From assembly GCA_016783065.1 (NCBI GenBank), contig JADHXI010000009.1, positions 1 to 41,019 on the forward strand: a stretch of DNA of 41,019 nucleotides. The letters are read 5' to 3'. The translations under genes and the position numbers were made by a program. The DNA comes from Desulfobacteraceae bacterium (GTDB lineage Bacteria; Desulfobacterota; DSM-4660; Desulfatiglandales; Desulfatiglandaceae). Of this stretch, positions 7,001 through 21,420 are shown one piece after another (position 1 is the first letter of the stretch; every line of letters begins with the position of its first letter). Below the pieces are notes generated by a model, which saw nothing but the letters and a program-made list of their open reading frames with translations, was not told where the DNA came from and searched no databases.

Positions 7001-7255
7001 GGCTACAGTGGAGGTGATCTGCCTCACAGCGTCATCATAGGCCGCATCCGGAAGACCCGGATTCAGTTGGATGAGTTTGGCCCTCAGTGTCCTTATCAGC
7101 ACCACTTCCTGGTCTGAGTTGCGACCCAGGAAGCCCTCCGGTCCGAAGTCCTCGTCATTGTGGGAATAGACCGACTCCCAACCAAGCTGGTTTTCCAGAT
7201 ACTCGGCTGTGGTCTGCTGAACAAGGGTGTCTTCCGTATAGGATGTGGGCGTCAT
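4010..7255 (-). CDS. hsdR: Type I restriction enzyme, R subunit (nuclease-translocase)
   Basis: A 1081-residue motor and nuclease of a type I restriction system. It cuts unmodified DNA far from the recognition site after ATP-driven translocation. The N-terminal PD-(D/E)xK nuclease is visible as D151 ... E165-C-K167. SF2 helicase motifs follow: TQGAGKS (300-306, Walker A), DEAH (403-406), FTGTP (429-433) and a motif VI region ARANRVNEG. The C-terminal ~300 residues are helical and highly charged, as usual for docking to HsdM/HsdS. All catalytic residues are intact, so the enzyme looks active. The start overlaps the stop of the preceding gene by 4 bp (ATGA), so it is the last gene of the operon. 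Confidence 0.96.
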   Translation of the reverse strand: MTPTSYTEDTLVQQTTAEYLENQLGWESVYSHNDEDFGPEGFLGRNSDQEVVLIRTLRAKLIQLNPGLPDAAYDDAVRQITSTVASQTIVATNREKYDLMRDGVQVTFRNDKGERVRDRLKIFDFAEPDNNDFLCVRELWVRGDLYRRRADIVGFVNGLPLLFIECKNIHKDLKTAFEMNYSDYRDTIPHIFHHNAIVMFGNGEKAKIGSITSKWGHFHDWKRLAEDEPGTVDMETLLKGICNKRNLMDLVENFILFDESSGEPKKILARNHQFLGVNLAVESVRERRVRRGRLGVFWHTQGAGKSYSMVMFTRKVHRKLGGNFTFLVLTDREDLDTQIYKTFAGCGVVNHDREPCRASGGKHLGRMLGQHKSYVFSLIQKFNQEVDPDEGYTRRDDIIVITDEAHRTQYGTLALNMRNALPNASYIGFTGTPLFTDDQITRRVFGEYVSTYDFQRAVEDKSTVPLYYDARGDKLGIAIGDLNERLAEKLEELETIDIDVQQRLEKELKRDYHIITADKRLDQVARDFVNHYSAAWETGKAMLVCIDKVTCVRMYNRIVTYWNERMAEMESERSLCQDEQEEIYLQRQIEWMRETRTAVVVSEEQGEVDKFRKWDLDITVHRKLIKDGMDLPDGMRSQPRFRNMQRMDLDDAFKEELHPFRIAIVCAMWLTGFDVPSLSTLYLDKPLKAHTLMQAIARANRVNEGKNNGLIVDYCGILKNLRKALATFAGTQPGGPGGGTDPARPEEELLDDLAEAIVLVQTFIKERNASLDDVIGKTGFERNAAIVACKEAANENDETRKRFEVMCREVFKKFKACINVLGVNAHRADRDAINIVYKSLQQDRDQADISDIIRKLHQVVDMAIETKSERTAEEKAPYDMSRIDFDKLKKEFERSPAKRTTVQTLKQAVETRLQRLLQQNPLRTDFQQHYEAIVAEYNREKDRVNIERTFEALLKLVEELDEEESRAVREGLDEESLAIFDLLKKGDLNAADIKRIKSVAVRLLETLKAEKLRVDQWRDKEATRDAVRVTIQNFLWSDKTGLPVDSYTEDDVQTRSDEVFRHVFRVYPTVPSPYYQYAAAA

Positions 7256-7860
7256 GATTGCTCCTTGCCCTGTCGTTTGAGCAATTCTTGTCCCAGTTCG
7301 GTCAGACGGTAACGTTGTTTGCTACTGCGCGGCTTATCAGGGATCGTAAGCTCCATGAGATCAGCGTCGATCAGTGGTTGCAGGATCGTTTTTCTGAAAC
7401 GGGTTCGATTTGTGTGCCCTGCCAGAGCCATCAGCGTCAACATATCCACCGGTGAAGTTGAAGCCTGCATGATCATCTCGGCAAGGTCAGTTGGGACAGA
7501 CTTGGGACAGACTTGGGACAAGCTTTGGACGGAAACGGTCCCAAGTCCCCCGGTTTCAACGGATGCCAGGCTCTCATCCTGGACGATGGGTCTCGGAAAG
7601 CTCACGGTAAACCAATGTTCGGACACCTCAATACGTGGTTCGGCAGAACGGGCGATGGCCTGCACTTCTGACTTCAGCCGGTTGTGATCGGCGACGCCGA
7701 CGATTTTGCCTTTATCCGTTACACCGATCAGGATTACGCCGCCGGTGGCGTTGGCAAAGGCACAGATTTCGCGCCTGAGATTCGAAGTGCTTGCACGCTT
7801 GAACTCGGTTGTGAAGCCTTCACCGAGGGCCATCAGATCCATCAGATGTTTTCGTTTCAT
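7252..7860 (-). CDS. AlbA/Schlafen-domain protein with apparent internal deletion
   Basis: A 202-residue protein. Residues 1-70 are an AlbA_2 (Schlafen-like, divergent AAA) domain: FTTEFKRA, then EICAFANATGGVILIGVTDKG. Around residue 71 the sequence passes directly into EPRIEVSEHWFTVSFPRP, which in full-length relatives (~450 residues) comes after a long central domain. A winged-helix segment follows (residues ~135-200). I infer an in-frame loss of about 250 residues. Such proteins often sit between hsdS and hsdR; their role is unclear. The start overlaps the hsdS stop and the stop overlaps the hsdR start (both ATGA), so its translation is coupled. Alternatively it may be a naturally short family variant. 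Confidence 0.75.
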   Translation of the reverse strand: MKRKHLMDLMALGEGFTTEFKRASTSNLRREICAFANATGGVILIGVTDKGKIVGVADHNRLKSEVQAIARSAEPRIEVSEHWFTVSFPRPIVQDESLASVETGGLGTVSVQSLSQVCPKSVPTDLAEMIMQASTSPVDMLTLMALAGHTNRTRFRKTILQPLIDADLMELTIPDKPRSSKQRYRLTELGQELLKRQGKEQS

Positions 7861-9023
7861 ACCGAAATCTCTCCGTTCATCAGGCGCGGCAGGAGCAGGT
7901 CGCGGGCGTTCGTAAGAGATGACTTTTGTTGTTCCAGCAATTCAAGTTGCTGGAACAACGTCTTTACAACTACTTCAAATTCTTTAAGTAGGTTTTCAGA
8001 TGGAATGAGCACTGGTATGGATGTGAATTTAGTTTTATTGACATTTGGCATCGTCGCACCTCCGCCCATCGCCTCCAACCGTGGTTTTATATCAATTAAC
8101 GCAAAGAGGATGTAATGTCTCATGTAGTCCTCATATGGGATGACAGCGTTAATCTGCTGATTGGTTTGACATGGACGGGTGGTAATGGAAACAACACCAA
8201 GTTTGGCGCCAATACAAGCAACTAATATTGTGCCTACAGGCAAAGTTTTTTTGTGCTGGGTGGCAGCACCTCTGTCTGACAGCGATTCTTCTGTTTCAAT
8301 AATTATTCGACTGCGGTGCATGTCAGGTGTTTTTACAAATAGAATATTGCCACCAAAGTTTTCGGGTATTTTGGTTGAAGGTGTTTTCCCTGTAATACAT
8401 TTTCCAAAGTCAGCTACAGTACCTTTGACCCACCCCTTCGGCACGCCGTCGATGATTTTTACGAGTTCGTAACCGGGGAAGCGGAGGTGGACGAACCACT
8501 CCTTGTAGAGCAGCCGCGCCGCCTGTTCTAGCAATTGAATCCGCCGCCGGTTGTTCTCGATCAGGTCGTCGTAGGATGACAGGATAGAGGCGATGTCTCG
8601 TCGTTGTGATGGCAAAAACTGCGGGAATTCAAAGTCTGAAAAGAGTTTCCATTTCGTTCGTGGTCGGGCGCCCTTTGAATTGGTAGTAGCGTACTTTATA
8701 AACTGCGGTTGTGCAATCCCATAGAAGATGAATTTCTGATCTTCAGGTTCAAAGGCACGAACAACGCTGAACTCTGTTGAACAGACTCCATCGCATGGAG
8801 CAACTATGACTTTTCGAAAATAGGGTCGCAATGTCCCAAACAGGATATCTCCTATTTTGAAACGAAATTTACTGCTTTCTACTTCCTGCGATGATCCAAT
8901 AGACGAAAGGTGTAAAGATCCCTGCTTCACATGCTCCAGTCCGATGTAGGGTAAATCATCTTCCTTGTTGGGCATATAGACATCCTTGATTTCGATGGCG
9001 AGGTCAGAAATCCTGCTATTCAT
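7857..9023 (-). CDS. hsdS: Type I restriction-modification specificity subunit
   Basis: A 388-residue DNA-recognition subunit. It has two target-recognition domains (residues ~1-140 and ~185-340), each followed by a conserved helical region: LSSYDDLIENNRRRIQLLEQ in the centre and LLEQQKSSLTNARDLLLPRL at the C-terminus. The helices form the spacer that sets the distance between the two half sites. The target sequence cannot be deduced. It is coupled by 4-bp overlaps to hsdM upstream and the AlbA-domain gene downstream. The first domain is AT-richer than hsdM/hsdR, a usual sign of domain swapping in hsdS. Confidence 0.94.
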   Translation of the reverse strand: MNSRISDLAIEIKDVYMPNKEDDLPYIGLEHVKQGSLHLSSIGSSQEVESSKFRFKIGDILFGTLRPYFRKVIVAPCDGVCSTEFSVVRAFEPEDQKFIFYGIAQPQFIKYATTNSKGARPRTKWKLFSDFEFPQFLPSQRRDIASILSSYDDLIENNRRRIQLLEQAARLLYKEWFVHLRFPGYELVKIIDGVPKGWVKGTVADFGKCITGKTPSTKIPENFGGNILFVKTPDMHRSRIIIETEESLSDRGAATQHKKTLPVGTILVACIGAKLGVVSITTRPCQTNQQINAVIPYEDYMRHYILFALIDIKPRLEAMGGGATMPNVNKTKFTSIPVLIPSENLLKEFEVVVKTLFQQLELLEQQKSSLTNARDLLLPRLMNGEISV

Positions 9024-11134
9024 ACCCCCAACTCCTCAAATTTTTTCTTAATGTTCGCCGCCAACGTTACCGCTTCGGCGTTGAGGTCCTCGAGCTCGAC
9101 GTGAATCTCGCGCAGGGCCTCCTCGAAGTCGAAGTTTTCGTCTTCTTCCTCAGGGGCGATGCCCACGTAGCGGCCGGGGGTCAAGCTCCAATCATTGGCT
9201 TCGATCTCGGCGTGGTCCACCAGTTTGACCAAACCCTCCACATCGCAGAGCTTGGCCTCGGAAAAACGTTCGGTGAGCCAGCGGGCCTGTTTCCAGAAAT
9301 AGCGTACCTGCTTGAGCTGGGTGATGGCGAGTTGACGTGCCACATCGGCGGCCTTGCTCAAATGGGTGATGTCACGGCCTACCCAGGTATCGCTTAATTT
9401 GGCATTGCACTCTTTCTCGCAGGTCTCAATCAGATGGGTGGCGAGTTTGTAGAGCAGGTCGCTCTGTTTGATCAGATTGCGGCTGGTCTCGACCATCGAG
9501 GCGAGTCGGTCAACCGCTTTTTTGAGTGCGCCGTTGGTGGTCTTCTGCGCTTTCCATACGTCTTCCTGTTCAACAAGGGCCTTTTTGAACCCGGCGACAT
9601 CGGTTTGGAATGCGGGCAGGGCCTTTGTTAGTTCCACTTGAATCGAGGTATGAGCGACATCTGCGGAAAGGGTGTCTGTGAAGGTTTTTATGTTGTTTAT
9701 CAGGGTCTTGATGGCCTTGGCAAAGTCGGGCAGAGGCCGGATGGCGTCTCCGCTTTCGTCCTTTGTGTTGAAACAGTCCGAGCCTTCATTCAGAGTACGG
9801 CGGCAGTAACCGGAAACCAGTTCAAGGTACCTGTCGGTCCGACCGCGATAGAGCCACACAATGGCCAGCAGGTTCTGCCGCTGCTCGGGGCTGAAGTCGT
9901 AGATCTTGCGAGTGACCTTCCTATAGACATTCCGCGCGTCGATCATCAGCATCTTATCGCGGTGGGCATCGGGCTTGTCGCGGTTCAAAAACCACAGCTC
10001 GCAGGGGACCGTGCGGGTATAAAAGAAATTGGACCGAATGGCCACCATCACGTCCACATCGCCGCTCTCCACCAGCTTTCGGCGCACCTTGGCCTCGCCG
10101 CCCCCGGCACTGGAGGCCTGGGAGGACATGACAAAACCGGCCCGCCCCCGCTCGCTTAAATAGCTGTAAAAATAACTGATCCAGATGTAGTTACCGTTGG
10201 AGACCTTCCCCTTTTTGTTGACCCCGGGCAGACCGAATGGCAGGCGCGGGTCGGTCTTGACCTTGTCCGCATCAATTTCGTCCACATTGAAAGGCGGATT
10301 GGCCATCACGAAGTCGGATTTGCCGACCAGCTCGTGGGGGTCTTCGTAATACGTAATCGCCTTCTGAATGTCGCCTTCAAGGCCGTGGACGGCCAGGTTC
10401 ATCTTGGCCAGCCGGATGGTGGTGGCGTTTTTTTCCAGGCCGCGGAAGGTCAGCCGTTCAGTGGGGCTCTGACCGTGCTCCTCCACTATACGCGCACTCT
10501 GAACAAACATGCCGCCTGAGCCGCAGGCCGGGTCCAGCACCGTGCCGCGTTCGGGATCGAGCACGTGGGCGATCAGTGAAACCAGCGACACAGGGGTGAA
10601 AAACTCCCCACCGTCGTGAGCCTTCTGGTCGGCAAACTGGGTCAGAAAATATTCATAGATGCGGCCAAAAACATCTCCCGAGACCTTTTTCAGTACGTCT
10701 GGGTTGAGCGTGCGCAAAAGCTGACCGAGGACATCGTTGTCCAGTTCCTGGTATTCACTCTTAGGCAGGATACCGCGCAAATTGTCGTAATCCGCCTCGA
10801 TGGACTCCATGGCCTTGATAATGGCCTTGGCACGGTCCGCACTGTCAGGCATGGCCACAAGATAGTCGAACTGCGCTTCAGGCTGCAGGAAGATCGAGCT
10901 CTGCTGGGAAAAGTCCTCCTTAGTCAGCGCCCGCGTCTTGCCGCCGCGGGTAGGCAGATTGGCCTCGATCCCGTCCTTTACCGCCAAGAAGCGGCTGTAG
11001 GCATGTCGCAGGAAAACCAGACCCATCACAGGCAAAAAGTATTCGTTGCTGGCATAATTCGAGTTGGCGCGCAGCGTATCCGCCGCACCCCACAGCCGCT
11101 TTTCAATCGCCTCGATATGTTCTAATTGTGTCAC
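9020..11134 (-). CDS. hsdM: Type I restriction-modification DNA adenine methyltransferase subunit
   Basis: A 704-residue N6-adenine methylase. It has an N-terminal helical HsdM_N region (1-130), the SAM-binding DPACGSGG (201-208) and the catalytic NPPF (279-282). The long C-terminal extension (~480-704) is helical and heptad-like, probably contacting HsdS/HsdR; it makes this protein larger than classic ~500-residue HsdM. The start is GTG at 11134 (GTGACACAATTAGAA), with GGAG about 8 bases upstream. It is the first gene of the operon. The upstream space contains attC-like palindromes, so the operon borders the cassette array. Confidence 0.95.
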   Translation of the reverse strand: MTQLEHIEAIEKRLWGAADTLRANSNYASNEYFLPVMGLVFLRHAYSRFLAVKDGIEANLPTRGGKTRALTKEDFSQQSSIFLQPEAQFDYLVAMPDSADRAKAIIKAMESIEADYDNLRGILPKSEYQELDNDVLGQLLRTLNPDVLKKVSGDVFGRIYEYFLTQFADQKAHDGGEFFTPVSLVSLIAHVLDPERGTVLDPACGSGGMFVQSARIVEEHGQSPTERLTFRGLEKNATTIRLAKMNLAVHGLEGDIQKAITYYEDPHELVGKSDFVMANPPFNVDEIDADKVKTDPRLPFGLPGVNKKGKVSNGNYIWISYFYSYLSERGRAGFVMSSQASSAGGGEAKVRRKLVESGDVDVMVAIRSNFFYTRTVPCELWFLNRDKPDAHRDKMLMIDARNVYRKVTRKIYDFSPEQRQNLLAIVWLYRGRTDRYLELVSGYCRRTLNEGSDCFNTKDESGDAIRPLPDFAKAIKTLINNIKTFTDTLSADVAHTSIQVELTKALPAFQTDVAGFKKALVEQEDVWKAQKTTNGALKKAVDRLASMVETSRNLIKQSDLLYKLATHLIETCEKECNAKLSDTWVGRDITHLSKAADVARQLAITQLKQVRYFWKQARWLTERFSEAKLCDVEGLVKLVDHAEIEANDWSLTPGRYVGIAPEEEDENFDFEEALREIHVELEDLNAEAVTLAANIKKKFEELGV

Positions 11135-11268: not shown

Positions 11269-12357
11269 TTAGGGTTCGTATTCCTCAATATTTAATATTT
11301 TTCCAGAATCAAATTGTTCTTTTACTTCGTCTATCGTTATACCTGATTGTAAAAGATGAATTAAAAAGTCAGTCCATTTATCATTATACACATAGTCGTT
11401 ATGAGGCTCATCATAATGACAATAATCAGTATTTGTGTCAAATGGATCGTCTGCGCCTCCAGGCGGACGAATACCAAAAACAGTATAAATATATCTATGT
11501 CTTGGGTGATTCAGAATCTTTTTGCCAAATGTTTCATTCACTTTATCAATAACTTGCCCTGGTTTTAATCTGCCTACGTTAACTCCTTCTACCTTAATTT
11601 TTCTGTCTTTGACTAACACTGTTATTTTCTCATATAGTTCTTTATCTTTTCGTTCAAGTTGATCAAAATTTACATATTCTATCACAAGATCATTTCTATT
11701 TGTGTTAGATATTTTTGGAACTTGTAGTAATTTAATGCTATATTCCTGAGAGTTAAAAGTGTCTTCATCCAGTGATGTTCTGTGTTTATTAACATAATCT
11801 ATTATTTCTTTTAGATCTCTCGAAAGAGCAATTTTACTTGATTTCATCTGTTCTTTAGTGCGGAGATGTGAAAATTGAAGAGAATAAACCAATGATTCAT
11901 TAAGCGCATATTTATTTCCAAATAACTCTATCAGTAAATTTTCGTAATTATATAGAAATGCTTGGCATTCGCCAAATATTAGAATGTCAACTTCACGTTT
12001 TTCTATATGCCTGTGTTCAATTTTATTTCGCAATTGAATAAAAAATTGCAAATTCTTTTTAACCGGTTCTTTTAATTTTCCATATTTTCTTATACAAGTG
12101 GATAGCTCCCATGCTTTCCTTTCACCATCAATAGTTTCATATCTTCCAGTTTTCTTTTTATAAAAATATTTATTACCAATGGTATGATTAAAGTAAGCAT
12201 GAAATAGTCTCGTCCATGATATTACCATTAGCGCTATGAATCCCTCACATCTAAAGGTTGTTCTCGGCTTATTATAAATCTCAACGGCGAGTAGCGCTGA
12301 ATCAATAGATGATTGTAATAGTGTTTTTGTCCGTCCTTTTCTTAGAGATACAGCCAT
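11269..12357 (-). CDS. DUF3644-like protein with HEPN-type R-N-K-x-x-H motif
   Basis: A 362-residue protein. The N-terminal SSIDSALLAVEIYNKP...RCEGFIALMVISWTRLFHAYF matches the DUF3644 pattern as I know it. QLRNKIEHRH gives R110-x4-H115, the metal-independent RNase motif of HEPN domains. The C-terminal third (from ~240) is a separate region with RPPGGADDPF and many acidic/aromatic residues. The gene is much richer in A/T than hsdM next to it, a sign of transfer. DUF3644 genes are commonly found near defence systems. The upstream side carries GTTAGGG, a likely attC core, so this is probably a cassette gene. An RNA-cleaving abortive-infection role is inference. Confidence 0.7.
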   Translation of the reverse strand: MAVSLRKGRTKTLLQSSIDSALLAVEIYNKPRTTFRCEGFIALMVISWTRLFHAYFNHTIGNKYFYKKKTGRYETIDGERKAWELSTCIRKYGKLKEPVKKNLQFFIQLRNKIEHRHIEKREVDILIFGECQAFLYNYENLLIELFGNKYALNESLVYSLQFSHLRTKEQMKSSKIALSRDLKEIIDYVNKHRTSLDEDTFNSQEYSIKLLQVPKISNTNRNDLVIEYVNFDQLERKDKELYEKITVLVKDRKIKVEGVNVGRLKPGQVIDKVNETFGKKILNHPRHRYIYTVFGIRPPGGADDPFDTNTDYCHYDEPHNDYVYNDKWTDFLIHLLQSGITIDEVKEQFDSGKILNIEEYEP

Positions 12358-12613: not shown

Positions 12614-13405
12614 TTATAGTATGTGTTCTTCAACACGTTGTGCCCCTGTCGGTGAAAGGAGAACAGAGTCTGTTTCCTTGTCAAATTCTATCATCCGCTT
12701 CTTGTGAAGAGTCTTGAGAACACGACTTTTGAAGACACTAAGATTTGAGTATTCTATCCAGTCGCAGAGATCCTCCACGAGTAGGGCCGATTCTTTCGAA
12801 GAGTAAAGAATTAGGAGAACTTGATCCCCAGCGGAGAGTCCTTTCTTGAGAACACGTTTCTTTCCGGCCACTTCCCAGATTGCGGGCAGTTGTCGCACAG
12901 AGATGCTGTCCACAAGGTCCTGAGCTTCTTCGAGGGACATTCCGTGGTGGATTCTGACTAGCTCACAGAGAACCCAGTCAGCTGTGCGAGCCATGACTGC
13001 CGTATCTATCTCATTTGCATCAACATCTCCACCTATATGGCCAATGCCTCGCTTGTTTCTCATGGTATAAAGAAACACGAGTGCTCTCGGGAGAATGACT
13101 CGTTCCGATTCGGTTGAAGCCCCGGAGGGAGAGACGATCAACTTCCGGCACTCATCTGCAAAGTTGCCAATCTTTTTGTTGAACGGTATGGATGAGCCTG
13201 TGACTACCTTCTGAATGTGACGAAGAACGGCTTCGCAGAATTTTCCTGCAGCCAAGCCAGCCGCATCGTGACGAGCTTCAATACAATTCCGCTTTAGATC
13301 GAAATATGCGGTAATAATTTTCGTGCGAAACTTCTTTTGGATACTGCTTAATGCAGCATCTAGAAGGGCGTTATGCTTTGGTGTATTCATATTGATTATC
13401 TGCAT
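12614..13405 (-). CDS. Unknown protein with HEPN-like R-N-K-x5-H motif
   Basis: A 263-residue protein that I do not assign to a named family. A largely helical N-terminal region (20-150) contains KFCEAVLRHIQKVVTG and MRNKRGIGHIGGDVDA. R116-N-K-...-H123 is an Rx6H motif like that of HEPN nucleases. The C-terminal part (175-263) looks like a winged helix (KSRVLKTLHKKRMIEFD). The start at 13405 has a GAAAGAAGA ribosome site; an ATG at 13390 has none. It overlaps the upstream 153-residue gene by ~35 bases in another frame, so the two are co-translated. It probably forms a two-gene cassette with that partner; the two ends of the pair carry matching GTTGGGG/CCCCAAC cores. Confidence 0.6.
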   Translation of the reverse strand: MQIINMNTPKHNALLDAALSSIQKKFRTKIITAYFDLKRNCIEARHDAAGLAAGKFCEAVLRHIQKVVTGSSIPFNKKIGNFADECRKLIVSPSGASTESERVILPRALVFLYTMRNKRGIGHIGGDVDANEIDTAVMARTADWVLCELVRIHHGMSLEEAQDLVDSISVRQLPAIWEVAGKKRVLKKGLSAGDQVLLILYSSKESALLVEDLCDWIEYSNLSVFKSRVLKTLHKKRMIEFDKETDSVLLSPTGAQRVEEHIL

Positions 13406-13832
13406 TCTTCTTTCGTGTCAGTTCGCCGTTGCGGACCATTCTTGAGAGTTTGCTGGAGAATTCATTTGCTTTAAAATTGCGAGCAAAATTCGTTGAGCAA
13501 TGCTGAATGATGTCATTAATAGTTCTGGGTTTAGAGAAGAAGTCGCCTTCAGCCAACTTGCTCACGGTCGCAACTGCGCCAGTGCCCGCAGCCGTAATCT
13601 TTTTCTTGCCTTTATTCGCAGCAACATTAGCCGACTTGGTTGCCGCCTTTGGCTTCTTGCGCGATGGCTTCTGAGACACTCTGTCCTTTGCTGGTATTTT
13701 GTCTCCTTGAAATACAGACGAATCTAGGATTAACTCAACAATACGAAGCTGGACGGCTTCTGACTTGAAGGCGTTTAAGACCCCGGCGAGTTCTTTAAGC
13801 TCTTTTTTGACCGTTTCGAAGTTCTTGATCAT
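13371..13832 (-). CDS. Unknown small basic protein, partner of the HEPN-like gene
   Basis: A 153-residue protein with three visible parts: a helical N-terminus (1-45, VKKELKELAGVLNAFKSEAV), a Lys/Ala-rich flexible linker (50-85) and a C-terminal winged-helix-like part (95-153, TINDIIQHC...SKLSRMVRNGELTRK) that could bind DNA. A strong AGGAGA ribosome site lies before the ATG at 13832. It starts 21 bases after the attC core GTTGGGG, so it is the first gene of its cassette. A regulator or antitoxin-like role for the following HEPN-like protein is possible but unproven. Confidence 0.6.
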   Translation of the reverse strand: MIKNFETVKKELKELAGVLNAFKSEAVQLRIVELILDSSVFQGDKIPAKDRVSQKPSRKKPKAATKSANVAANKGKKKITAAGTGAVATVSKLAEGDFFSKPRTINDIIQHCSTNFARNFKANEFSSKLSRMVRNGELTRKKNADNQYEYTKA

Positions 13833-13852: not shown

Positions 13853-13940
13853 CCCCAACACTGCAAATAACCGGTTGCCAAATGTTGTATAGCGAAGCGG
13901 CGCAACGTTTGGCAATCCGAGTTAATTTGCCTTGTTAGGT
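13853..13940 (-). other. attC: Integron attC recombination site
   Basis: An 88-bp imperfect palindrome. Read on the minus strand, it begins ACCTAAC (13940-13934, fits RYYYAAC) and ends GTTGGGG (13859-13853, GTTRRRY except the last base). The arms AAGGCAAATTAACTCGG ... and ... CCGGTTATTTGCAG pair with single unpaired bases on one side, the signature extrahelical bases of attC. TTGCCAAA/TTTGGCAA forms the inner stem. It starts 3 bases after the stop of the HEPN/zinc-ribbon gene, as expected for that cassette's own attC. Confidence 0.8.
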
Positions 13941-13943
13941 ATT

Positions 13944-14858
13944 TCATTCGTCCCATTGACAGAATCCTGGACAACATTTTCCCTCTCCAATATTGGCTTC
14001 TAACGCCACTTCTGCGTCACATTTTTTACATACGTAAATCAAGTCATCGTCTCCACACTTGAGGCAAAGTCCCCTCATTGTTCTATCTTTTTGACAATCG
14101 ATATTTAATGCATCGTAGACCATTGATCTTTTAGATTTACAGTATGGGCAATTAATGAAGCCTGCATGACTTAAATCCTCACAACAGGAGTAGCAGTATT
14201 CGGAACCGTAATCGACTGAAAGAGAGTCGTTTCCACAATGGACACAGCAATATACATTCTCTGCATTCTCCTTAGCTACTTTATGCATCTCATGTGCATA
14301 AGGTGGGAATTTGACTAATTTCAAAAAGTCTTTCGAATCTATATTTTCAGCTATTGCCTGGGATGGTTTAACTTCCTCCTCGGTTAAAGTGGGGATAACC
14401 ACTTTAACAATAAAATAGGTTAAATCATATTTTAGATCATACAGTTCCGATTCATCAAACTTATAATTCAAATGAACTAGCTTGTTTCTTATTTTTTGGA
14501 ATTCATTTATTAAATATTCATCATCACTATTTAAAAAAACGGTTCTTTCTAAAGCGTCTTTTTTCAACATGTTAAAAGGCTTCGTCATCAACTCGTTGTT
14601 TTCAAATTTTGACAGCAGGCTTTCTGCAGTTAATGTAGTGTCTACTCCTTTAACAATTCCGTGTATTCCATCGGCTTTTATGAAATAAGCAACCAATGAA
14701 AGCTCAAATGACATTTGAATTAAAGTGGTAGCCATAATGGCTTTTTCCTCAGTCAAGCCTTCATCATTTGAGTCGTCGTGGCTGATTAATTCTTTTATAG
14801 CCCTCCTGAGAAAGAGCCACGAGTTATCACGAACCTTTTTAACTATATTACTGCTCAT
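13944..14858 (-). CDS. HEPN-like protein with C-terminal zinc ribbons
   Basis: A 304-residue protein. The N-terminal ~180 residues are helical and include KIRNKLVHLNY: R124-x4-H129, the HEPN ribonuclease motif. The C-terminal third holds a series of Cys pairs: C204/C205/C208, C222/C225/C226, C237/C240, C265/C268, C277/C280 and C295/C296/C300. This is enough for about three zinc ribbons that could bind RNA, DNA or protein. The gene lies cleanly between two attC sites (14870-14941 and 13853-13940), so it is a mobile cassette. It is AT-rich compared with the core genes. I infer an RNA-cleaving defence or stress effector; I know of no named family with this exact layout. Confidence 0.7.
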   Translation of the reverse strand: MSSNIVKKVRDNSWLFLRRAIKELISHDDSNDEGLTEEKAIMATTLIQMSFELSLVAYFIKADGIHGIVKGVDTTLTAESLLSKFENNELMTKPFNMLKKDALERTVFLNSDDEYLINEFQKIRNKLVHLNYKFDESELYDLKYDLTYFIVKVVIPTLTEEEVKPSQAIAENIDSKDFLKLVKFPPYAHEMHKVAKENAENVYCCVHCGNDSLSVDYGSEYCYSCCEDLSHAGFINCPYCKSKRSMVYDALNIDCQKDRTMRGLCLKCGDDDLIYVCKKCDAEVALEANIGEGKCCPGFCQWDE

Positions 14859-14869
14859 AGTGCCCCAAT

Positions 14870-14941
14870 ACCTAACGCCTAGCTTCAGTTGCCGCTGTGG
14901 AGCGCAGCGGAACAGCGGTCAACTGCAAGCTGATGTTAGAT
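14870..14941 (-). other. attC: Integron attC recombination site
   Basis: A 72-bp site. On the minus strand it begins ATCTAAC (14941-14935) and ends GTTAGGT (14876-14870), exact RYYYAAC and GTTRRRY boxes. The arms CATCAGCTTGCAGTTGACC and GGCAACTGAAGCTAGGC pair with unpaired G and A on one side, then ACAGCGG/CCGCTGT closes a 13-base loop. These are all the structural marks of attC. It lies between the TIR-SLOG gene and the HEPN/zinc-ribbon gene. Confidence 0.88.
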
Positions 14942-14984: not shown

Positions 14985-16046
14985 CTAATCCGAGCCATAA
15001 AGAAACTCCGCAATTCCCTTCGCCGGCTTAGCCTTCTCATACTTGCGCCAGCCTTCATAAGGTTTCTGCTCAATTTCCGACGCCTCTTTCCAGAGGTGAT
15101 ACGCAGTACCTTCAAAGAAAGGAACCATCACAACTTTCGTCTTCAACTCCTTTGCGGCCTTATATTCCTCCATGGTACCGACATTTCCCCCTACCAGTAC
15201 TAAGCACTCAACATCGGCTAAGTAGCTTTTCCTGAATTCGTGTAAATGGAGCATCCATTCCTCTTGAAGTTCAGACTCAAGATCGCTTTCCTCTCGTGCA
15301 AACCGGTCTACGGGATACAGACCGCCGATACGATAGTGAGCTTCTTCAGTTCTATGTTTTCTTCGATAATCAAGGTACGCACTCGATACAACTTTGCCCA
15401 AATCCTCTACTTGGGGACACGATGCAATACTAAATCCTCTTTGAAGAAGGGAGGCAGTGAGATCACTTACGAACTTTCTCAATCGGTTCCTGTGTCTCTT
15501 ATCATTAGCTTTCTCGGCGGCAAGATTCCCTGCTATAAAGATCCAGCGTACTTTGGAGATCCTCAGGATCGCGTCCATATGACGGTTGTCAGTGACGAGA
15601 CGTTCAATCTGTGTTCGTATAGTCAACGGCTCTGCTCTTGTATCATGAGCTTTACAGACATTAACGAGAAAATCGGTAAGGCTGTTATGGTCGAAGAGAT
15701 CAAAAACGGTAACGTCCTTACCAATGAGCTCAATTTCGCTAATGGATACGCCAGCTGTTCGGACCGGAAATCTCTTAAGACCAAAAGCTTCTGCAGCACC
15801 AGACTCGAAGAGAACCCAAGGCCGTCTGACTGAGTGTCTAGTATATATCGGCACGAAACATGAGCTCTCTCTGATCCCTCGTAGTACATGCTTCCGCCAC
15901 GCTTCACCTCCTGCCGATCGGCGAAGAGCATCAGGTGCGAAGTAGACAGTTTCGCGAATGTCTAGAAACAAGTCGCTGAGTTTCTGTGCCAGTTCTCGAT
16001 CCGGTTGGGCAAAGCTTAAAAACACGGTATGCTTATTATTATCCAT
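14985..16046 (-). CDS. TIR-SLOG (STALD-like) fusion protein, candidate immune NADase/sensor
   Basis: A 353-residue protein. Residues 5-95 are a TIR domain: VFLSFAQPDRELAQKL at the start, then RESSCFVPIYT and PWVLFESGAAEA, with E81 as the probable catalytic glutamate of TIR NADases. Residues ~165-320 form a SLOG/LOG-like Rossmann domain: WIFIAGN, LLQRGFSIASCPQ and VGGNVGTMEE (286-294, the nucleotide-binding GGxxGTxxE motif). In Thoeris, ThsA carries a SIR2 joined to a SLOG-type STALD domain that senses a cyclic ADP-ribose signal made by a separate TIR protein. Here TIR and SLOG lie in one chain. Ribosome site GGAGGG precedes the ATG. It lies next to an attC, so it is probably a cassette gene. 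The function is inferred. Confidence 0.82.
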   Translation of the reverse strand: MDNNKHTVFLSFAQPDRELAQKLSDLFLDIRETVYFAPDALRRSAGGEAWRKHVLRGIRESSCFVPIYTRHSVRRPWVLFESGAAEAFGLKRFPVRTAGVSISEIELIGKDVTVFDLFDHNSLTDFLVNVCKAHDTRAEPLTIRTQIERLVTDNRHMDAILRISKVRWIFIAGNLAAEKANDKRHRNRLRKFVSDLTASLLQRGFSIASCPQVEDLGKVVSSAYLDYRRKHRTEEAHYRIGGLYPVDRFAREESDLESELQEEWMLHLHEFRKSYLADVECLVLVGGNVGTMEEYKAAKELKTKVVMVPFFEGTAYHLWKEASEIEQKPYEGWRKYEKAKPAKGIAEFLYGSD

Positions 16047-16146
16047 AGGGAATTCCCTCCATTAACAGAACATTGGAAAGATCAATGTAGTTGCTCATCA
16101 CACCTTTTTTCATTAGGTGAAATTCACAGCCATCTACGTTAACATG

Positions 16147-16600
16147 AAGGGGTCAAATCTTTGATTGACCTTTCTTTATAGTGAAGCAAATATTTGCCCA
16201 TAACGCTTTTTGAACTTATTGTTTCACAACCTTCTTTTTACCCTGCTGATTGCATTGCTTACGGAACTGTAATTCTTTAGATTAAATTCCTCACTTTCAC
16301 CCCCAGAAAATAACAATACCACTCCTCATCCAGCTAATCGTTTCATTCAGAATCACCGCCAGGGTGTTGAAATTTTCAATTTTTGCTCACGATCCCTTCA
16401 AAAGAGACTGGCACAAATAAAAAGCGCCTTTGGGAACAGTTGCCCAAAGGCGCTTTTAAGGTCGTCCTGCGCAATTACGAAACCATAGGCTTTCGGCTTT
16501 GGGGCCATCGGCCCGCTCCCACCTATTTTGGTTGTTTATATTGGAATTATCTATTCAATTTTGTCGGTACAACTGCTTTCCTTATATTTCCCTAAATGTC
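16147..16600. pseudogene. Relic of an acetoacetate-decarboxylase-like locus: both flanks kept, gene lost
   Basis: Copy 1 of a repeat that also surrounds the intact gene at 17698-18492. The left 200 bases (from AAGGGGTCAAATCTTTGATT) match 17502-17700. The right 200 bases (the hairpin and its tail) match 18530-18745. Between them almost all of the coding part is missing; only a frame-broken trace of the last codons remains near 16345-16370. The simplest reading is duplication of the whole locus followed by deletion of the gene. The PIN-toxin gene's 3' end overlaps the right edge. Confidence 0.65.
16420..16457. terminator. 15-bp perfect hairpin, copy 1
   Basis: AAAAGCGCCTTTGGG pairs perfectly with CCCAAAGGCGCTTTT across an 8-base loop. 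With A-runs before and T-runs after, it can act as an intrinsic terminator on either strand. Copies lie at 18557-18594 (one mismatch) and 20993-21030 (perfect). Confidence 0.75.
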
Positions 16601-17089
16601 AAGAGGTTTTTTGAGATGGCTCCGGGATTTAGCAGCCATATATTCGCGGGGTGTCATAACAATGCCTTGGAACTTGCTCTTAAAGTGATCTTTATCCCAT
16701 GTAACCAGGGTTGAGATGAAAGAGAGGTTCTTTTGGGTAACTGTCAGCATCAGGGCGTCCCCAAGCGAGATCTTCTTCTGAAACTGCTCAAACAGATCCA
16801 CGATGCGAAAACCTGGAAAGTCAGAAGTCATATCAGGTGGAGGCAGCACCGTGACTTTGTATCGCTCTTGGAAGTAACGCCACAGGTCGAGCAACTGTTT
16901 TTCATTGAGATTTAAAGAGAGAATCCCGCAAAGTTCCAGAAGATTAATCAGTGTTGTAAACCCGGTACCCCTTTTGGCAACTGTGTCCAGAAATGCCAGA
17001 TTCATACGGTAATTTACATCCTGTTTATAGCGAAGATCGATCACAAATACATTTGTATCGATCAGAATCAGATCCTCTTGCGGACCCAT
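16592..17089 (-). CDS. PIN-domain toxin (VapC-like RNase)
   Basis: A 165-residue PIN-domain protein with the acidic set D11 (LILIDTNVF), E52 (NLLELCG), D111 (SLGDALML) and D132/D134 (TWDKDHF). PIN toxins cleave RNA, often tRNA, with Mg2+. The ATG at 17089 is preferred because GGGAGG lies 6-7 bases upstream; the in-frame ATG at 17107 contains that site inside the gene. It overlaps the 3' end of the Phd-type antitoxin by ~20 bases, the usual coupled order antitoxin-toxin. Confidence 0.88.
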   Translation of the reverse strand: MGPQEDLILIDTNVFVIDLRYKQDVNYRMNLAFLDTVAKRGTGFTTLINLLELCGILSLNLNEKQLLDLWRYFQERYKVTVLPPPDMTSDFPGFRIVDLFEQFQKKISLGDALMLTVTQKNLSFISTLVTWDKDHFKSKFQGIVMTPREYMAAKSRSHLKKPLDI

Positions 17090-17331
17090 TCTGTTGCCTC
17101 CCGCCACCCCTGAAACTGAGGTTCTGTTTCCCGCAATGCTGCTTCAATGCCTCTCCAGACATGTTTCACGTCTCTCAACCCTTCTGATTTACTATCTTCT
17201 TCCAGGGAAGAGGGCGTAATAACGGCAACCGGCCTTCCCCTGTATGTCACGGTCAGCCGTTCGCCAGATCTGACCCGTTTCATAACTTCACCGGTTCTTT
17301 GCTTAAGATGCTTTGCGGTGATGGTCCCCAT
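17068..17331 (-). CDS. Phd/YefM-family antitoxin
   Basis: An 87-residue antitoxin. N-terminal TITAKHLKQRTGEVMKRVRSGERLTVTYRGRPVAVITP is the DNA-binding Phd/YefM fold. The C-terminal part (45-87, rich in E/W/R) would wrap the PIN toxin encoded next. A GGAGG ribosome site precedes the ATG at 17331. Members of this family repress their own operon. Confidence 0.88.
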   Translation of the reverse strand: MGTITAKHLKQRTGEVMKRVRSGERLTVTYRGRPVAVITPSSLEEDSKSEGLRDVKHVWRGIEAALRETEPQFQGWREATEWVRKRI

Positions 17332-17697
17332 TGCAATTGCCTCCGATCAGAAGTAAGCACTTTAAAAAAGAGTAACCACTTCCTCTAACTATGTCAAGAC
17401 AAAAAAGGACCGTTCCATGGGGACCAAAACAAGGGGGTCAGGTCTTCATTCTTCACTGCCGCTTAGGTTCTGTTGATTGGGGAAAACCCCCGTGGGGAAT
17501 ATGAAGGGGTCAAATCTTTGATTGACCTTTCTTTATAGTGAATCAAATATGTGCCCATAACGCTTTTTGAACTTATTGTTTCTCAACCTTCTTTTTACCC
17601 TGCTGCTTGCATTGCTCACGGAACTGTAATTATTTAGATTAAATTCCTCACTTTCGCCCCAGATAACAACAATACCACTCCTCATCCACTTATCACC
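17332..17697. other. Intergenic: boundary repeat plus downstream flank of the decarboxylase gene
   Basis: No gene. 17425-17490 is a GGGGGTCAGGTCTTCATTC boundary repeat, also seen at 25123-25190, 27588-27650 and 28364-28440. 17502-17697 is the flank copied in 16147-16380 and partly in 20452-20575. It starts with GGGTCAAATCTTTGATTGACC, a short inverted repeat. Confidence 0.65.
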
Positions 17698-18492
17698 TCA
17701 TTCAGAAACAACCGCCAGGGTGTCAACGTTCCACCGTTGGTCCGGGGCGTGGAGCTTGCTCATCACCCCTTCAGCATATTGTCCACTCGAAGAAGTTTTG
17801 CTCAGATTAAGTTCTGAAATTTCCTGGCTGATCCGATGGACTCCCAACTCAAGTTTGGCCTTGTGTCCCATCATCTTCACACCATACCTGGGCGCCCATC
17901 CATCAACAAACGTATGCATCACTACATTTTCTTTGATTGAATAAGTATGAAATTCAAGTCGGGCGGATTGTTTTAGCGGGAGCTTTGCCGCATTCATTTT
18001 GAGAATCAGTTCATCTCCCTCTTTGAGCGTAACTTCCAAGTTCTGATCCTGATCCTCAAACGTAATCTCAGACAGAAACTTGGGATAATTATAGAAGTGG
18101 ACGCCACCCATGCGGGCAATATCTGTGGTAACGGGCAGGTGATGGATATAGACGGAAAAACGATTCTTACGCATCATAGAGATCGCGGAGAGTCCGGGAA
18201 AAACAAATCCCGGGGGAAATCTGACAGGGATGGCAATTGCGACCTCATTATAGGGTCCTATGGCGGTGTCCAGGTATTCAAAGGCTGTGACGATAAGCAT
18301 GCCTGTTCCCGGCAAAATCTCAATGGGCTTGAAATTGGAGTGGGGAAGGAGTTTTTTGAGCTTTTTGGTCTTGGCGGTAAACGTACTGCTGATCATACGA
18401 AAATTATAGTAAAGGACCGGGAATTCAAAAGGCTCGCCTTCCATATCCAGGGTCTTTATCGGAGTGTCCTCAAAAAATGGGTCGTCTCTCAT
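17698..18492 (-). CDS. Acetoacetate decarboxylase family protein
   Basis: A 264-residue protein of the acetoacetate decarboxylase (ADC-like) family. Visible family features are FEYLDTAIGPYNEV (71-84), IPVRFPPGFVFPG, and YNYPKFLSEITFED, where K138 matches the Schiff-base lysine region (GxPK). Length is normal. The substrate is uncertain: the family includes enzymes acting on larger keto acids and cyclic dienes. An AAAGGGGTG ribosome site precedes the ATG at 18492. It is the only intact copy of a locus with decayed copies at 3.7, 16.3, 20.2 and 20.6 kb. A strong hairpin lies ~65 bases before the start, inside a repeated leader. Confidence 0.85.
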   Translation of the reverse strand: MRDDPFFEDTPIKTLDMEGEPFEFPVLYYNFRMISSTFTAKTKKLKKLLPHSNFKPIEILPGTGMLIVTAFEYLDTAIGPYNEVAIAIPVRFPPGFVFPGLSAISMMRKNRFSVYIHHLPVTTDIARMGGVHFYNYPKFLSEITFEDQDQNLEVTLKEGDELILKMNAAKLPLKQSARLEFHTYSIKENVVMHTFVDGWAPRYGVKMMGHKAKLELGVHRISQEISELNLSKTSSSGQYAEGVMSKLHAPDQRWNVDTLAVVSE

Positions 18493-18529
18493 CGTTTCAC
18501 CCCTTTCTTATTTCAATTCCGGCTCACAA

Positions 18530-18745
18530 TCCCTCGAAAAAAGACCTCCACAAATAAAAAGCGCCTTTGGGAACAGCTACCCAAAGACGCTTTTAACGTC
18601 GTCCAGCGCAATTACGAAACCATAGGCTTTCGGCTTTGGGGGCATCGGCCCGCCTCACACACCTATCTTGGTTGTTTATATTGAAAATTACCTACTCAGG
18701 CTTGCTGGTATAAGTATTTGCTTAAAATTTGACAGGATGTCAAGC
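18530..18745 (-). promoter_or_regulatory. Repeated 5' leader of the decarboxylase gene, with hairpin and promoter-like dyad
   Basis: On the minus strand TTGACATCCTGTCAA (18743-18729) is a perfect 6-bp dyad containing a -35-like TTGACA. It is followed by ~135 bases conserved in the copies at 20980-21180 and 16412-16560, which contain GGGCCGATGCCC (stem with tetraloop) and AAAGCCGAAAGCC. The leader ends in the 15-bp hairpin and TTTTTATTTG. A conserved leader ending in a terminator-like hairpin just before a start codon is the layout of an attenuator or riboswitch. It matches no riboswitch class that I can recognise. Confidence 0.45.
18557..18594. terminator. 15-bp hairpin upstream of decarboxylase gene, copy 2
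   Basis: Same hairpin as 16420-16457 with one C-A mismatch (GACGC instead of GGCGC) in the right arm. It lies between the putative promoter and the start codon of the decarboxylase gene, so if it forms as a terminator it would limit that gene's expression. Confidence 0.7.
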
Positions 18746-18774
18746 AGTTTCTTCAAATTTGTGAAAAAAAAGTC

Positions 18775-19065
18775 ATGAATGGAAATAATAGGTGGATATT
18801 GGGGTTGATGGATTTATGTTCGGTGATATCTTGGTACAGCGGCATGGGCAGAAGATTATTCACCGCAGAGGCCCCAGTACCATCTCCCGGAGCTACGGGG
18901 CAGGCGCGGGGTACGCAGAGCCTGATCTATTCTTTCCTTGCGTTGAGCCCCACTCAAAGTCCGGGATAAAAGTGCGCAAAGCAAAGCTGGGGCCATCCCG
19001 CCACGCGGGGAGGTTTAAGGAGATGTCAACTAACAGTGAACAGGAAAACTGACCCAATTTTCAAG
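18775..19065. repeat. Fragment of the CACCGCAGAGG mosaic element
   Basis: No gene. CACCGCAGAGG at 18861 is followed at once by the 29-bp element (18872-18900), then GCGCGGGG..ACGCAGAG. Next comes an imperfect stem, CTTTCCTTGCG ... CGCAAAGCAAAG. CCATCCCGCCACGCG near 18991 recurs at about 33500. It separates the decarboxylase leader from the zeta module. Confidence 0.6.
18872..18900. repeat. 29-bp 'GTACTGGGG' element, copy 2
   Basis: Begins CCCCAGTACCATCT and ends GGAGCTACGGGG. It is inserted between CACCGCAGAGG and CAGGCGCGG; the equivalent element at 20630 has CACCGCAGAGGCGCGG without the insert. Confidence 0.7.
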
Positions 19066-19269
19066 TCAGGCACCCGTTTCCAGCGATGGTTTCACAGTAA
19101 TCCGCAACTCCGCTTCTTCCGGCGGAACTTCTCTTATCTGCTCATCCTCCCAGATAACCACGGGAGTGCTCGTCTGTTTGGCCCTTTCGAGGACCTTCTC
19201 TGCTGCCTGCCGGATAGCCCTATCCACTTTTTCAACCATCAGGGTATCTTTTTCTGAATTACTGTTCAT
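19066..19269 (-). CDS. Small acidic partner of the zeta toxin, candidate antitoxin
   Basis: A 67-residue protein. VEKVDRAIRQAAEKVLERAKQ (12-32) is one amphipathic helix, followed by a strand-rich acidic part (VVIWEDEQIREVPPEEAELRI). Start at 19269 with a very good GAGGAG ribosome site; a longer in-frame start inside the toxin gene is unlikely. The start overlaps the zeta gene's end by 11 bases, so the two are coupled with the toxin first. It is not like the classical epsilon antitoxin. The antitoxin role is inferred from position. Confidence 0.7.
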   Translation of the reverse strand: MNSNSEKDTLMVEKVDRAIRQAAEKVLERAKQTSTPVVIWEDEQIREVPPEEAELRITVKPSLETGA

Positions 19270-19894
19270 CGCTTTTCTCCTCAACGCTCTTTTCAATTCT
19301 CTCGAATAGACGTGAATGAAAGACTTGGAGCCTACCTTCTTTTTCACGAGCAATTTTTTTTGGAGGGAATTCCGACCCATCTAATAACCATACGATATGG
19401 GCAATAGGGTAATACAGTCGAAAGAAGTTTCGCAGGCCACTTCCATATCGCCTCCGTATAACCGGTTCGGGTACGTTATGACCTCCCTGTCGGACTCGTG
19501 CTCTCACGCGCGCCACCGCCATATCTGCGCTCGGCAGCCAGAGAAAAAACAGTTCAATCCGATATCCAATCATTCTCAGTTTCTTGAAGAGGCGCACATA
19601 ACCGCGTCCGGCCAGGGTCGTCTCAAATCCAAAGTTTTCTTTTGCAGCAGTAAGTTCCTTTATCCTGGTCAAAAGCAAGCGTCCTGCTCTCACGTTCTGC
19701 GTCTCCGGAGCAAATGGCGACAGCCCTGCGGCGATCAGGTCGGCGTTCAGGAATTCACGACAGTACACAAAGTCCGGCAAGAATTCGTTGGCAAACGTGG
19801 TTTTCCCTGCGCCGTTGGGTCCGGCAATGACATAAACCGTCGAATTTTCAGTCTGAGTGTCTTTTTCTTCTGGTTCGGCTTCTGTCATTCTCAT
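19259..19894 (-). CDS. Zeta-toxin family P-loop kinase
   Basis: A 211-residue protein with Walker A GPNGAGKTT (25-33). Other zeta-family marks are FLNADLIAAGLSPF, NFGFETTLAGRGY, RVRARVRQGGHNVPEPVIRRRY and LLDGSEFPPKKIA. Zeta toxins phosphorylate UDP-N-acetylglucosamine and so block cell-wall synthesis; related members act on other small molecules. The start is 19894 or the ATG two codons on (19888); neither has a strong ribosome site, which may keep expression low. The toxin-first order is reversed from classical epsilon-zeta. Confidence 0.88.
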   Translation of the reverse strand: MRMTEAEPEEKDTQTENSTVYVIAGPNGAGKTTFANEFLPDFVYCREFLNADLIAAGLSPFAPETQNVRAGRLLLTRIKELTAAKENFGFETTLAGRGYVRLFKKLRMIGYRIELFFLWLPSADMAVARVRARVRQGGHNVPEPVIRRRYGSGLRNFFRLYYPIAHIVWLLDGSEFPPKKIAREKEGRLQVFHSRLFERIEKSVEEKSDEQ

Positions 19895-20204
19895 TCGTGC
19901 TGTTTATGTTATTCGTGGTTGCTACCCCTATTTTTACCATTTATGCAATCCGTGTAATCTGTGGATCACTTTGGCCTTTTTCCGTCTACAGCCTTTTATC
20001 TCCGCCGCCAGACTTACAAATTTGTCAAAGTTTACCTTCACCCATCGTCTAGGTCAAGACTGATCAATTGGCCGGCGGCGCGACGTGTGCGCACTGGGAA
20101 CGTCCATTGGCAGATAAGTAGCTCAATAACTTATTGAATTCCAAATAGGATCCCCCACTTTCACGTGCAGAAAAAACCATACTATCCCTCGCCAACATAT
20201 TGTC
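19895..20204. other. Non-coding stretch upstream of the zeta module
   Basis: No credible gene. Pyrimidine-rich with short imperfect repeats (TGCTGTTTATG, TTCGTGGTTGCT). From 20098 it matches 20453 onwards: ACGTCCATTGG, then CAATAACTTATTGAA and AATAGGATCC. These are flank sequences of the decarboxylase locus copies. Confidence 0.5.
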
Positions 20205-20318
20205 TCATTCAGATACAACCGCCAAACTGTTTACTTTCCACCGCTAGTCCGGGGCGCAGAGCTTGCTCATCACCCCTTCGGTATATTGTCCAATCGAAGA
20301 GGTCTTGCTCAGATCAAT
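20205..20318 (-). pseudogene. C-terminal remnant of a second acetoacetate-decarboxylase-like gene
   Basis: In one frame this encodes DLSKTSSIGQYTEGVMSKL, then CAPD, a TAG stop, RWKVNSLAVVSE and a TGA. The intact gene reads NLSKTSSSGQYAEGVMSKL, HAPDQRWNVDTLAVVSE. So 37 codons survive, with CAG changed to TAG. The rest of the gene is replaced from 20319 by a GGGGTCAAATCT...TTGACCC boundary repeat. Clear evidence of a duplicated, decayed locus. Confidence 0.9.
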
Positions 20319-20323
20319 TAAAG

Positions 20324-20345
20324 GGGTCAAATCTACTCTTGACCC
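20324..20345. repeat. Boundary inverted repeat GGGTCAA...TTGACCC
   Basis: GGGTCAA and TTGACCC separated by 8 bases. It abuts the truncation point of the decarboxylase remnant. The same motif begins the repeats at 16150 and 17504 and is half-present at 1271, so it marks recombination boundaries. Confidence 0.6.
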
Positions 20346-20451
20346 TTGCTTAATTCAAATGTCAACGCTTCAACGTTTCTTTTGATTTTCTTATCCCTTA
20401 TTATTTCACGCTTCAATCTTCTATCAATACTGCTGATTGTGATTTGCGGGA

Positions 20452-20580
20452 CGTCCATTGGTAAATAAGTAACGCAATAAGTTATTGAACTACAAATAGG
20501 ATCCCTCACTTTCACCCCCAGAAAACAACGATACCACTCCTCATCCAGTTATCGCCTCATTCAGAGACAACCAGCCCTAA
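20452..20580. pseudogene. Third decayed decarboxylase locus: downstream flank and last codons
   Basis: Flank ACGTCCATTGG ... AATAGGATCC ... CTCATCCAGTTATCGCCTCATTCAG matches the downstream side of the intact gene. On the minus strand it ends with LVVSE and a stop, like LAVVSE-stop of the intact gene. The coding part is replaced by the mosaic element at 20596. The right flank (leader and hairpin) resumes at 20980. Confidence 0.65.
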
Positions 20581-20595
20581 AAAGGCTGGCTTGTA

Positions 20596-20940
20596 TGATG
20601 ACCCTGAAAGGGCCTTTGACAGAAGGTTATTCACCGCAGAGGCGCGGGGGACGCAGAGTTTATTTTTTGATTTGTTTTCCTTTGAGAGGAAGGAAAACAA
20701 ATAACAACATGCTGTACCCGATACAGTCATTATATCCAAAAATGTGTTTTTATGTGACCAGCTACTATCATGACTGACATAAAGCTGTGGCTCTTTTCTT
20801 TCCAGTGCCCCTGCCCTGCGGTATCCAAAGTCTATTCCACCGGGGTCAGCAGAAAAGAAAAGGTAGTCTCTCTTTGCAAACTTTGCCCTTGCCCCGTAGC
20901 TCCGGGAGATGGTACTGGGGTCTCGAGCGGGGTGCACGGA
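20596..20940. repeat. CACCGCAGAGG mosaic element, nearly full length
   Basis: Begins GACCCTGAAAGGG, then CACCGCAGAGGCGCGG (20631), then a perfect 13-bp palindrome ATTTGTTTTCCTT/AAGGAAAACAAAT (20670-20702). A second stem near 20792-20862 (CTTTTCTTT ... AAAGAAAAG) encloses a conserved core. The 29-bp element follows at 20892-20920. Closely matches 33165-33464 on its left part. An apparent 134-codon frame on the minus strand is an accident of this repeat. Confidence 0.7.
20892..20920. repeat. 29-bp 'GTACTGGGG' element, copy 3 (inverted)
   Basis: CCCCGTAGCTCCGGGAGATG ... ACTGGGG, the reverse complement of copies 2 and 4. It stands in the right end of the mosaic element. Confidence 0.7.
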
Positions 20941-20979
20941 GATAAATGATGCCTCGATCAAGGGCCGTCTTCAAAAGGG

Positions 20980-21215
20980 ACCGCCGCAAATAAAAAGCGC
21001 CTTTGGGAACAGTTGCCCAAAGGCGCTTTTAACGTCGTCCAGCGCAATTACAAAACCATAGGCTTTCGGCTTTGGGGGCATCGGCCCGCCTCACGCACCT
21101 ATTTTGGTTGTTTATATTTAAAACTACCTACTCAGGCTTGCTGGTATAAGTATTTGCTTAAAATTTGACAGGATGTCAAGAAGTTTTTTCAAATTTGTGA
21201 AAAAAAAGATTATGG
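20980..21215 (-). promoter_or_regulatory. Orphan copy of the decarboxylase leader with hairpin
   Basis: Almost identical to 18545-18770, including the dyad TTGACATCCTGTCAA (21179-21165, minus strand), GGGCCGATGCCC and a perfect 15-bp hairpin (20993-21030). The gene it once served is gone; the mosaic element follows instead. Conservation in an orphan copy shows recent duplication rather than selection by itself. Confidence 0.55.
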
Positions 21216-21227
21216 TGGAAATACACT

Positions 21228-21420
21228 GTACCCTGAAAGGGTCTTTGACAGAACATTATTCACCGCAGAGGCCCCAGTACCATCTCACGGAGCTACGGGG
21301 CAGGCGCGGTGGTCGCAGAGAAATGATTTGTTATTTTGCTTTTCGCTGACCCCGGAGAAATAGGCTTCACATTCCACAGGGCAAGGACAGCGAAAAGCAA
21401 AATCCATTCATCCGCGATGG
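21228..21420. repeat. CACCGCAGAGG mosaic element, short form
   Basis: CCCTGAAAGGG (21232), CACCGCAGAGG (21261), the 29-bp element (21272-21300), then CGCAGAG. Next is a perfect 16-bp stem ATTTTGCTTTTCGCTG / CAGCGAAAAGCAAAAT (21333-21348 and 21388-21403) around ACCCCGGAGAAATAGG ... GGGCAAGGA. Confidence 0.7.
21272..21300. repeat. 29-bp 'GTACTGGGG' element, copy 4
   Basis: CCCCAGTACCATCT ... GGAGCTACGGGG with one change from copy 2. Same insertion point (after CACCGCAGAGG) and same right junction CAGGCGCGG. Confidence 0.7.

Follow-up and report, generated by a model that had tools for sequence, protein, structure and literature searches.

An open reading frame on a bacterial contig appears to place a TIR domain and a Thoeris-type SLOG domain in one chain, and the question raised by this locus is whether such a protein could act as an NAD+-depleting effector that is switched by a nucleotide signal. 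We analyzed the gene within its window, the whole stretch of 41,019 nucleotides of DNA. Judging from its sequence, the encoded protein, denoted here as TIR-STALD, is probably an NAD-destroying TIR enzyme joined to a sensor domain related to that of ThsA, which reads cyclic ADP-ribose in Thoeris defense against phage. The gene and its two domains are located as follows.

14985..16046, minus strand: TIR-STALD(SLOG) fusion gene (open reading frame, Pfam TIR_2 and STALD, profile comparison, AF2 model, Foldseek)
15687..16025, minus strand: TIR domain (Pfam TIR_2), with the Glu81 codon near 15804-15806
15072..15572, minus strand: STALD-type SLOG domain, residues ~159-325, with A172-G173-N174, F249, R272, G287-N288-V289 and E294

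The frame starts with an ATG at 16046, stops at 14985 and encodes 353 aa; GGAGGG lies directly 5' of the ATG, and the plus strand across 14985-16046 carries stops throughout. The original prediction, which had left the strand unstated, gave ends that match this frame exactly, and it correctly placed Glu81 in the context PWVLFESG (residues 76-83) and noted the motif GGNVGTMEE (residues 286-294).

Pfam TIR_2 covers residues 8-120 (E 9.2e-11, 42.7 bits against a cut-off of 28), and Glu81 is the E of the conserved PW[VIL]L[FYW]E[AS]G, a catalytic-type position. When public collections were scanned for this motif, 86 TIR loci were recovered (80 genome, 6 viral; L041-L126), mostly encoding proteins of ~260-370 aa with other C-termini, and the Glu81 motif is common to TIR-STALD and effector-type TIR proteins. 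ThsB_TIR (PF08937) was not among the Pfam matches of the protein, and the PADLOC ThsB profile matched weakly (E 8.5e-3). Based on these profiles and on the fold comparison below, the TIR half seems to resemble NAD-depleting effector TIRs more than ThsB.

The Pfam STALD match on residues 159-325 (E 1e-4) reached 22.3 bits, just below the cut-off of 24 and so borderline on its own. The PADLOC ThsA STALD profile matched residues 158-334 (E 1.2e-5). When the SLOG region was compared by profile with nine canonical ThsA SLOG domains, taken from plasmid Thoeris loci and from BcThsA (whose sequence was checked against PDB 6lhx and 8bto), the probability was 93% (E 3e-7). The identity of the domain to the ThsA SLOG is ~20%. 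In a control profile test, the C-termini of ~84 other TIR proteins reached at most 4% and TIR-STALD 86%. Residues 278-309 also matched TIGR00725 and LDcluster4 weakly.

An AlphaFold model was computed from an alignment of TIR-STALD with nine TIRs and seven viral-contig ThsA proteins (mean pLDDT 76, pTM 0.65), the single-sequence prediction being unusable (pLDDT 40). The model has a predicted TIR fold at the N-terminus and a predicted ThsA-type SLOG fold at the C-terminus. For the C-terminal half, Foldseek returned the BcThsA SLOG with 3'cADPR (7uxs; probability 1.00, TM 0.61-0.64 by target) and ranked ThsA first, a match that is partly built in because ThsA sequences were part of the input alignment; TM1055 (1rcu) and DprA, which are SLOG proteins outside that alignment, were also returned. 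The N-terminal half was closest among solved TIRs to SPARTA TIR-APAZ and SpbK, two defense proteins that consume NAD; other TIRs also matched, and ThsB ranked lower. On the combined profile and model evidence, the C-terminal domain is a divergent STALD-type SLOG that is closest to the ThsA sensor, and the proposed union of a TIR and a Thoeris-type SLOG in a single chain is upheld by profiles and fold matches alike.

In BcThsA, R371, K388 and E403 have been reported to coordinate 3'cADPR (PMC10022894). Two of these three residues are kept in our alignment with BcThsA, R371 as R272 and E403 as E294, and K388, which is invariant across the nine canonical SLOG domains, is replaced by V289. At two further ligand-site positions, F357 is kept as F249 and S288 is replaced by A172, and the loop between the GN and the G..E motif is absent from the TIR-STALD SLOG. 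Since the Lys contacting 3'cADPR and the loop following it are lost, the ligand may not be 3'cADPR. By this alignment the SLOG half is related to the ThsA sensor and has a changed pocket.

Searches for further copies of the fusion covered limited collections and genome samples at limited sensitivity. The genome to which the window belongs was recovered to 72% completeness; it contains one TIR_2 and one STALD, both in the TIR-STALD gene, and no ThsB_TIR, second TIR_2 or second STALD was found in this recovered part. None of the ~84 TIR proteins with the same active-site motif carries a SLOG. Across 85 genomes of the same class, a profile search returned the window copy only, and 395 genomes of the same phylum held no other STALD copy; among 349 genomes of another phylum, STALD gave three strong matches, in open frames of SIR2-STALD length (489-496 aa). 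A search of 247 further genomes with the SLOG as query, run without a positive control, gave no match. Single-protein scans of viral and genome contigs likewise gave no match to TIR-STALD, and tblastn with the protein found nothing in plasmids and only TIR fragments in phages. A DNA pattern for the GG..GT..E[YF] motif matched nothing but unrelated genes. There was no close homologue in the collections searched. The fusion is supported as rare, and, given the limited sensitivity and sampling, uniqueness is not. The combination was not found elsewhere in these collections, and an earlier description in the literature is possible; systematic TIR discovery has been carried out (Yirmiya et al. 2025, as cited in PMC13232231). 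The name of the STALD family, 'Sir2/TIR-associating SLOG', a predicted nucleotide sensor (PMC7272460), already implies an association with TIR, so the pairing had been foreseen and its novelty is lowered.

Two loci met during these searches are recorded for their own sake. In genome G542 (L134, 1186-3185), a TIR frame lies directly upstream of a separate SLOG-like frame with a weak STALD match, possibly a two-gene version. In genome G030, of the same order as the window (L026, 531-3141), two short TIR/ThsB-like frames are followed by a ThcA-like SLOG fused to an apparent patatin-type lipase domain, which may represent a further Thoeris-type operon.

The gene was also proposed to be an integron cassette with the adjacent gene as a possible partner, and the relevant features are listed below.

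14870..14941, minus strand: attC-like site 1, with an R-box motif and a long imperfect hairpin, 3' of the TIR-STALD gene
13944..14858, minus strand: neighboring gene with weak HEPN_Swt1 similarity and zinc-ribbon Cys pairs
13853..13940, minus strand: attC-like site 2, 3' of the HEPN/zinc-ribbon gene
4010-11134: type I restriction system

Read along the minus strand, TIR-STALD is followed by attC-like site 1, the HEPN/zinc-ribbon gene and attC-like site 2, and the two sites fold with z-scores of -3.3 and -4.1 (site 1) and -4.5 and -4.9 (site 2). A relaxed attC scan gave a count not above that of shuffled sequence, so that the two calls are based on their consensus boxes, on the z-scores of the hairpins and on their placement between the ends of genes. 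The cassette claim is borne out at the 3' end of the gene, where an attC-like site lies, but not at the 5' end, where no attC or attI was recognized, nor by an integrase, as no intI in the 72% of the genome that was recovered reached its cut-off. An obligate partnership of the HEPN/zinc-ribbon gene with the TIR-SLOG protein would agree with the position of the former as the next gene on the same strand, 126 bp away. However, one attC-like site separates the two genes and another follows the second, as in separate cassettes, and around the one relative recovered for the HEPN/zinc-ribbon gene, which lies on a Ruminococcus plasmid, the annotation shows neither TIR nor SLOG. Because the gene sits in an attC-like-bounded cassette of its own, it is more likely independent, and an obligate partnership strikes us as barely credible.

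The surroundings are rich in defense and toxin-antitoxin genes (type I R-M, PDC-S19, Phd/PIN, zeta-like, Fic and PemK). Between hsdS and hsdR of the type I operon lies an AlbA/Schlafen-type gene with a Fic-like C-terminal domain (7252-7860), and a DUF3644 gene beside hsdM (11269-12357) matches PADLOC PDC-S19 (E 4e-144). Downstream of attC-like site 2, two overlapping genes (12614-13832) are without significant family matches, and no third attC was recognized near them. At 16141-21320, between toxin-antitoxin genes, lie dispersed direct repeats of several families, with copies of 143-236 nt that are 80-95% identical.

Both domains, a catalytic-type Glu, the conserved Arg/Glu pair of the SLOG and a defense-rich site beside attC-like sites are observed. 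The simplest reading is an effector built like ThsA, with a TIR NADase in the place of the SIR2 NADase and a nucleotide on the SLOG domain as its switch, and we give a probability of about 0.55 to TIR-STALD being a suicide NADase that is gated by a nucleotide in the manner of Thoeris and CBASS effectors. In this mechanism, the STALD (SLOG) domain would bind an ADP-ribose-derived or related nucleotide made during phage infection, and binding would alter the multimerization of the protein. The N-terminal TIR domains would then pack so that an active NAD+ pocket forms around Glu81, NAD+ would drop, and the infected cell would no longer support the phage. The NADase activity, the identity of the ligand, the oligomerization and the anti-phage role are all what we infer for TIR-STALD. 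There are precedents in STING-TIR and SAVED-TIR, which combine sensor and TIR in one chain and oligomerize on nucleotide binding (PMC11204291), and in CARF-TIR Cat1, where a signal sensor and a TIR also share a chain (PMC12162218). Against the gated effector stand the changes of K388 to Val and S288 to Ala, the STALD score below the Pfam cut-off, and the searches of the locus and of the recovered genome, which turned up no partner that would make the signal. Considering that the assembly is 72% complete, a separate signal maker may exist outside the recovered genome.

The original prediction had suggested that the protein could be an autonomous sensor-NADase. In such a self-signaling protein, a product of the TIR, a cADPR isomer or another ADPR product, would bind the SLOG of the same or neighboring chains in a feed-forward manner, and a phage protein or the NAD level would be the primary trigger. 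TIRs are able to make cADPR isomers (PMC10022894), and the sole TIR and sole STALD found in the recovered genome sit in one chain. The idea is weakened by the incompleteness of that genome and by a TIR that has no ThsB_TIR match and resembles depleting effectors; moreover, a chain switched on by what it makes would risk self-toxicity unless there is an extra brake. As the TIR is nearer to depleting effectors than to ThsB, a ThsA-like effector with a TIR fits better, and we consider self-signaling unlikely. The version of a one-gene Thoeris on an integron cassette, in which a closed TIR-SLOG circuit would make and read a TIR-derived nucleotide or read a phage-made one, in either case not 3'cADPR, is doubtful.

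The altered pocket could also mean that the SLOG senses a cue not made by any TIR, be it a protein of the phage or a nucleotide that is damaged or made by the phage, and that the gene is complete without a host signal maker. The K388 and S288 changes and the loss of the loop point to another ligand, no ThsB was found in the 72% of the genome recovered, and SpbK and DUF4062 TIR proteins are directly triggered by phage proteins (PMC12847820, PMC13174449), but at R272, E294 and F249 the residues are those of ThsA, and this explanation appears quite improbable to us. LOG-clade SLOG enzymes cleave base-ribose bonds (PMC9503650), and the SLOG half might itself be an enzyme rather than a sensor, perhaps processing the ADPR product of the TIR. 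The GGNVGTMEE motif resembles LOG-type phosphoribohydrolases, and the weak TIGR00725 and LDcluster4 match over residues 278-309 and the predicted fold similarity to TM1055 (1rcu) and DprA point the same way. However, the motif of TIR-STALD starts with VGG, whereas that of LOG normally starts with PGG, and over the full domain the ThsA sensor, not LOG, matches best; we hold an enzymatic SLOG to be very improbable. If the gated-effector reading is true, SLOG would join SAVED, STING and CARF as sensors coupled straight to a TIR NADase, a TIR would prove able to take the place of the SIR2 half of ThsA, and a new signal molecule for the altered SLOG pocket would become testable.

Among known systems, ThsA of type I Thoeris (SIR2-SLOG) shares with TIR-STALD the C-terminal STALD/SLOG, the pocket Arg and Glu, and an N-terminal NADase-type domain. 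TIR-STALD differs in having a TIR in place of the SIR2, in that the recovered genome (72% complete) yielded no ThsB, and in that K388, S288 and the post-GN loop are not conserved. Because a SIR2 effector and a separate ThsB both define type I Thoeris, TIR-STALD is not filed there, and it may still work like Thoeris. ThcA of type III Thoeris (NCBIfam NF058525) has a Thoeris-variant SLOG that matches residues 260-324 weakly, and membership in that family was rejected (16.7 bits against a cut-off of 110). SPARTA TIR-APAZ is the best solved match to the TIR half, and TIR-STALD is without APAZ or Argonaute; standalone TIR_2 proteins (L041-L126) are alike in TIR motif and length, and their C-termini are unrelated to STALD. 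TIR-SAVED and TIR-STING of CBASS and CARF-TIR Cat1 of type III CRISPR are alike in joining a TIR NADase to a sensor of nucleotide signals in one chain, whereas the sensor of TIR-STALD is a SLOG instead of SAVED, STING or CARF, and no CD-NTase or Cas10 was present among the scanned genes of the window. Taken all together, the parts of TIR-STALD are known already, and what is new, within the collections searched, is their combination.
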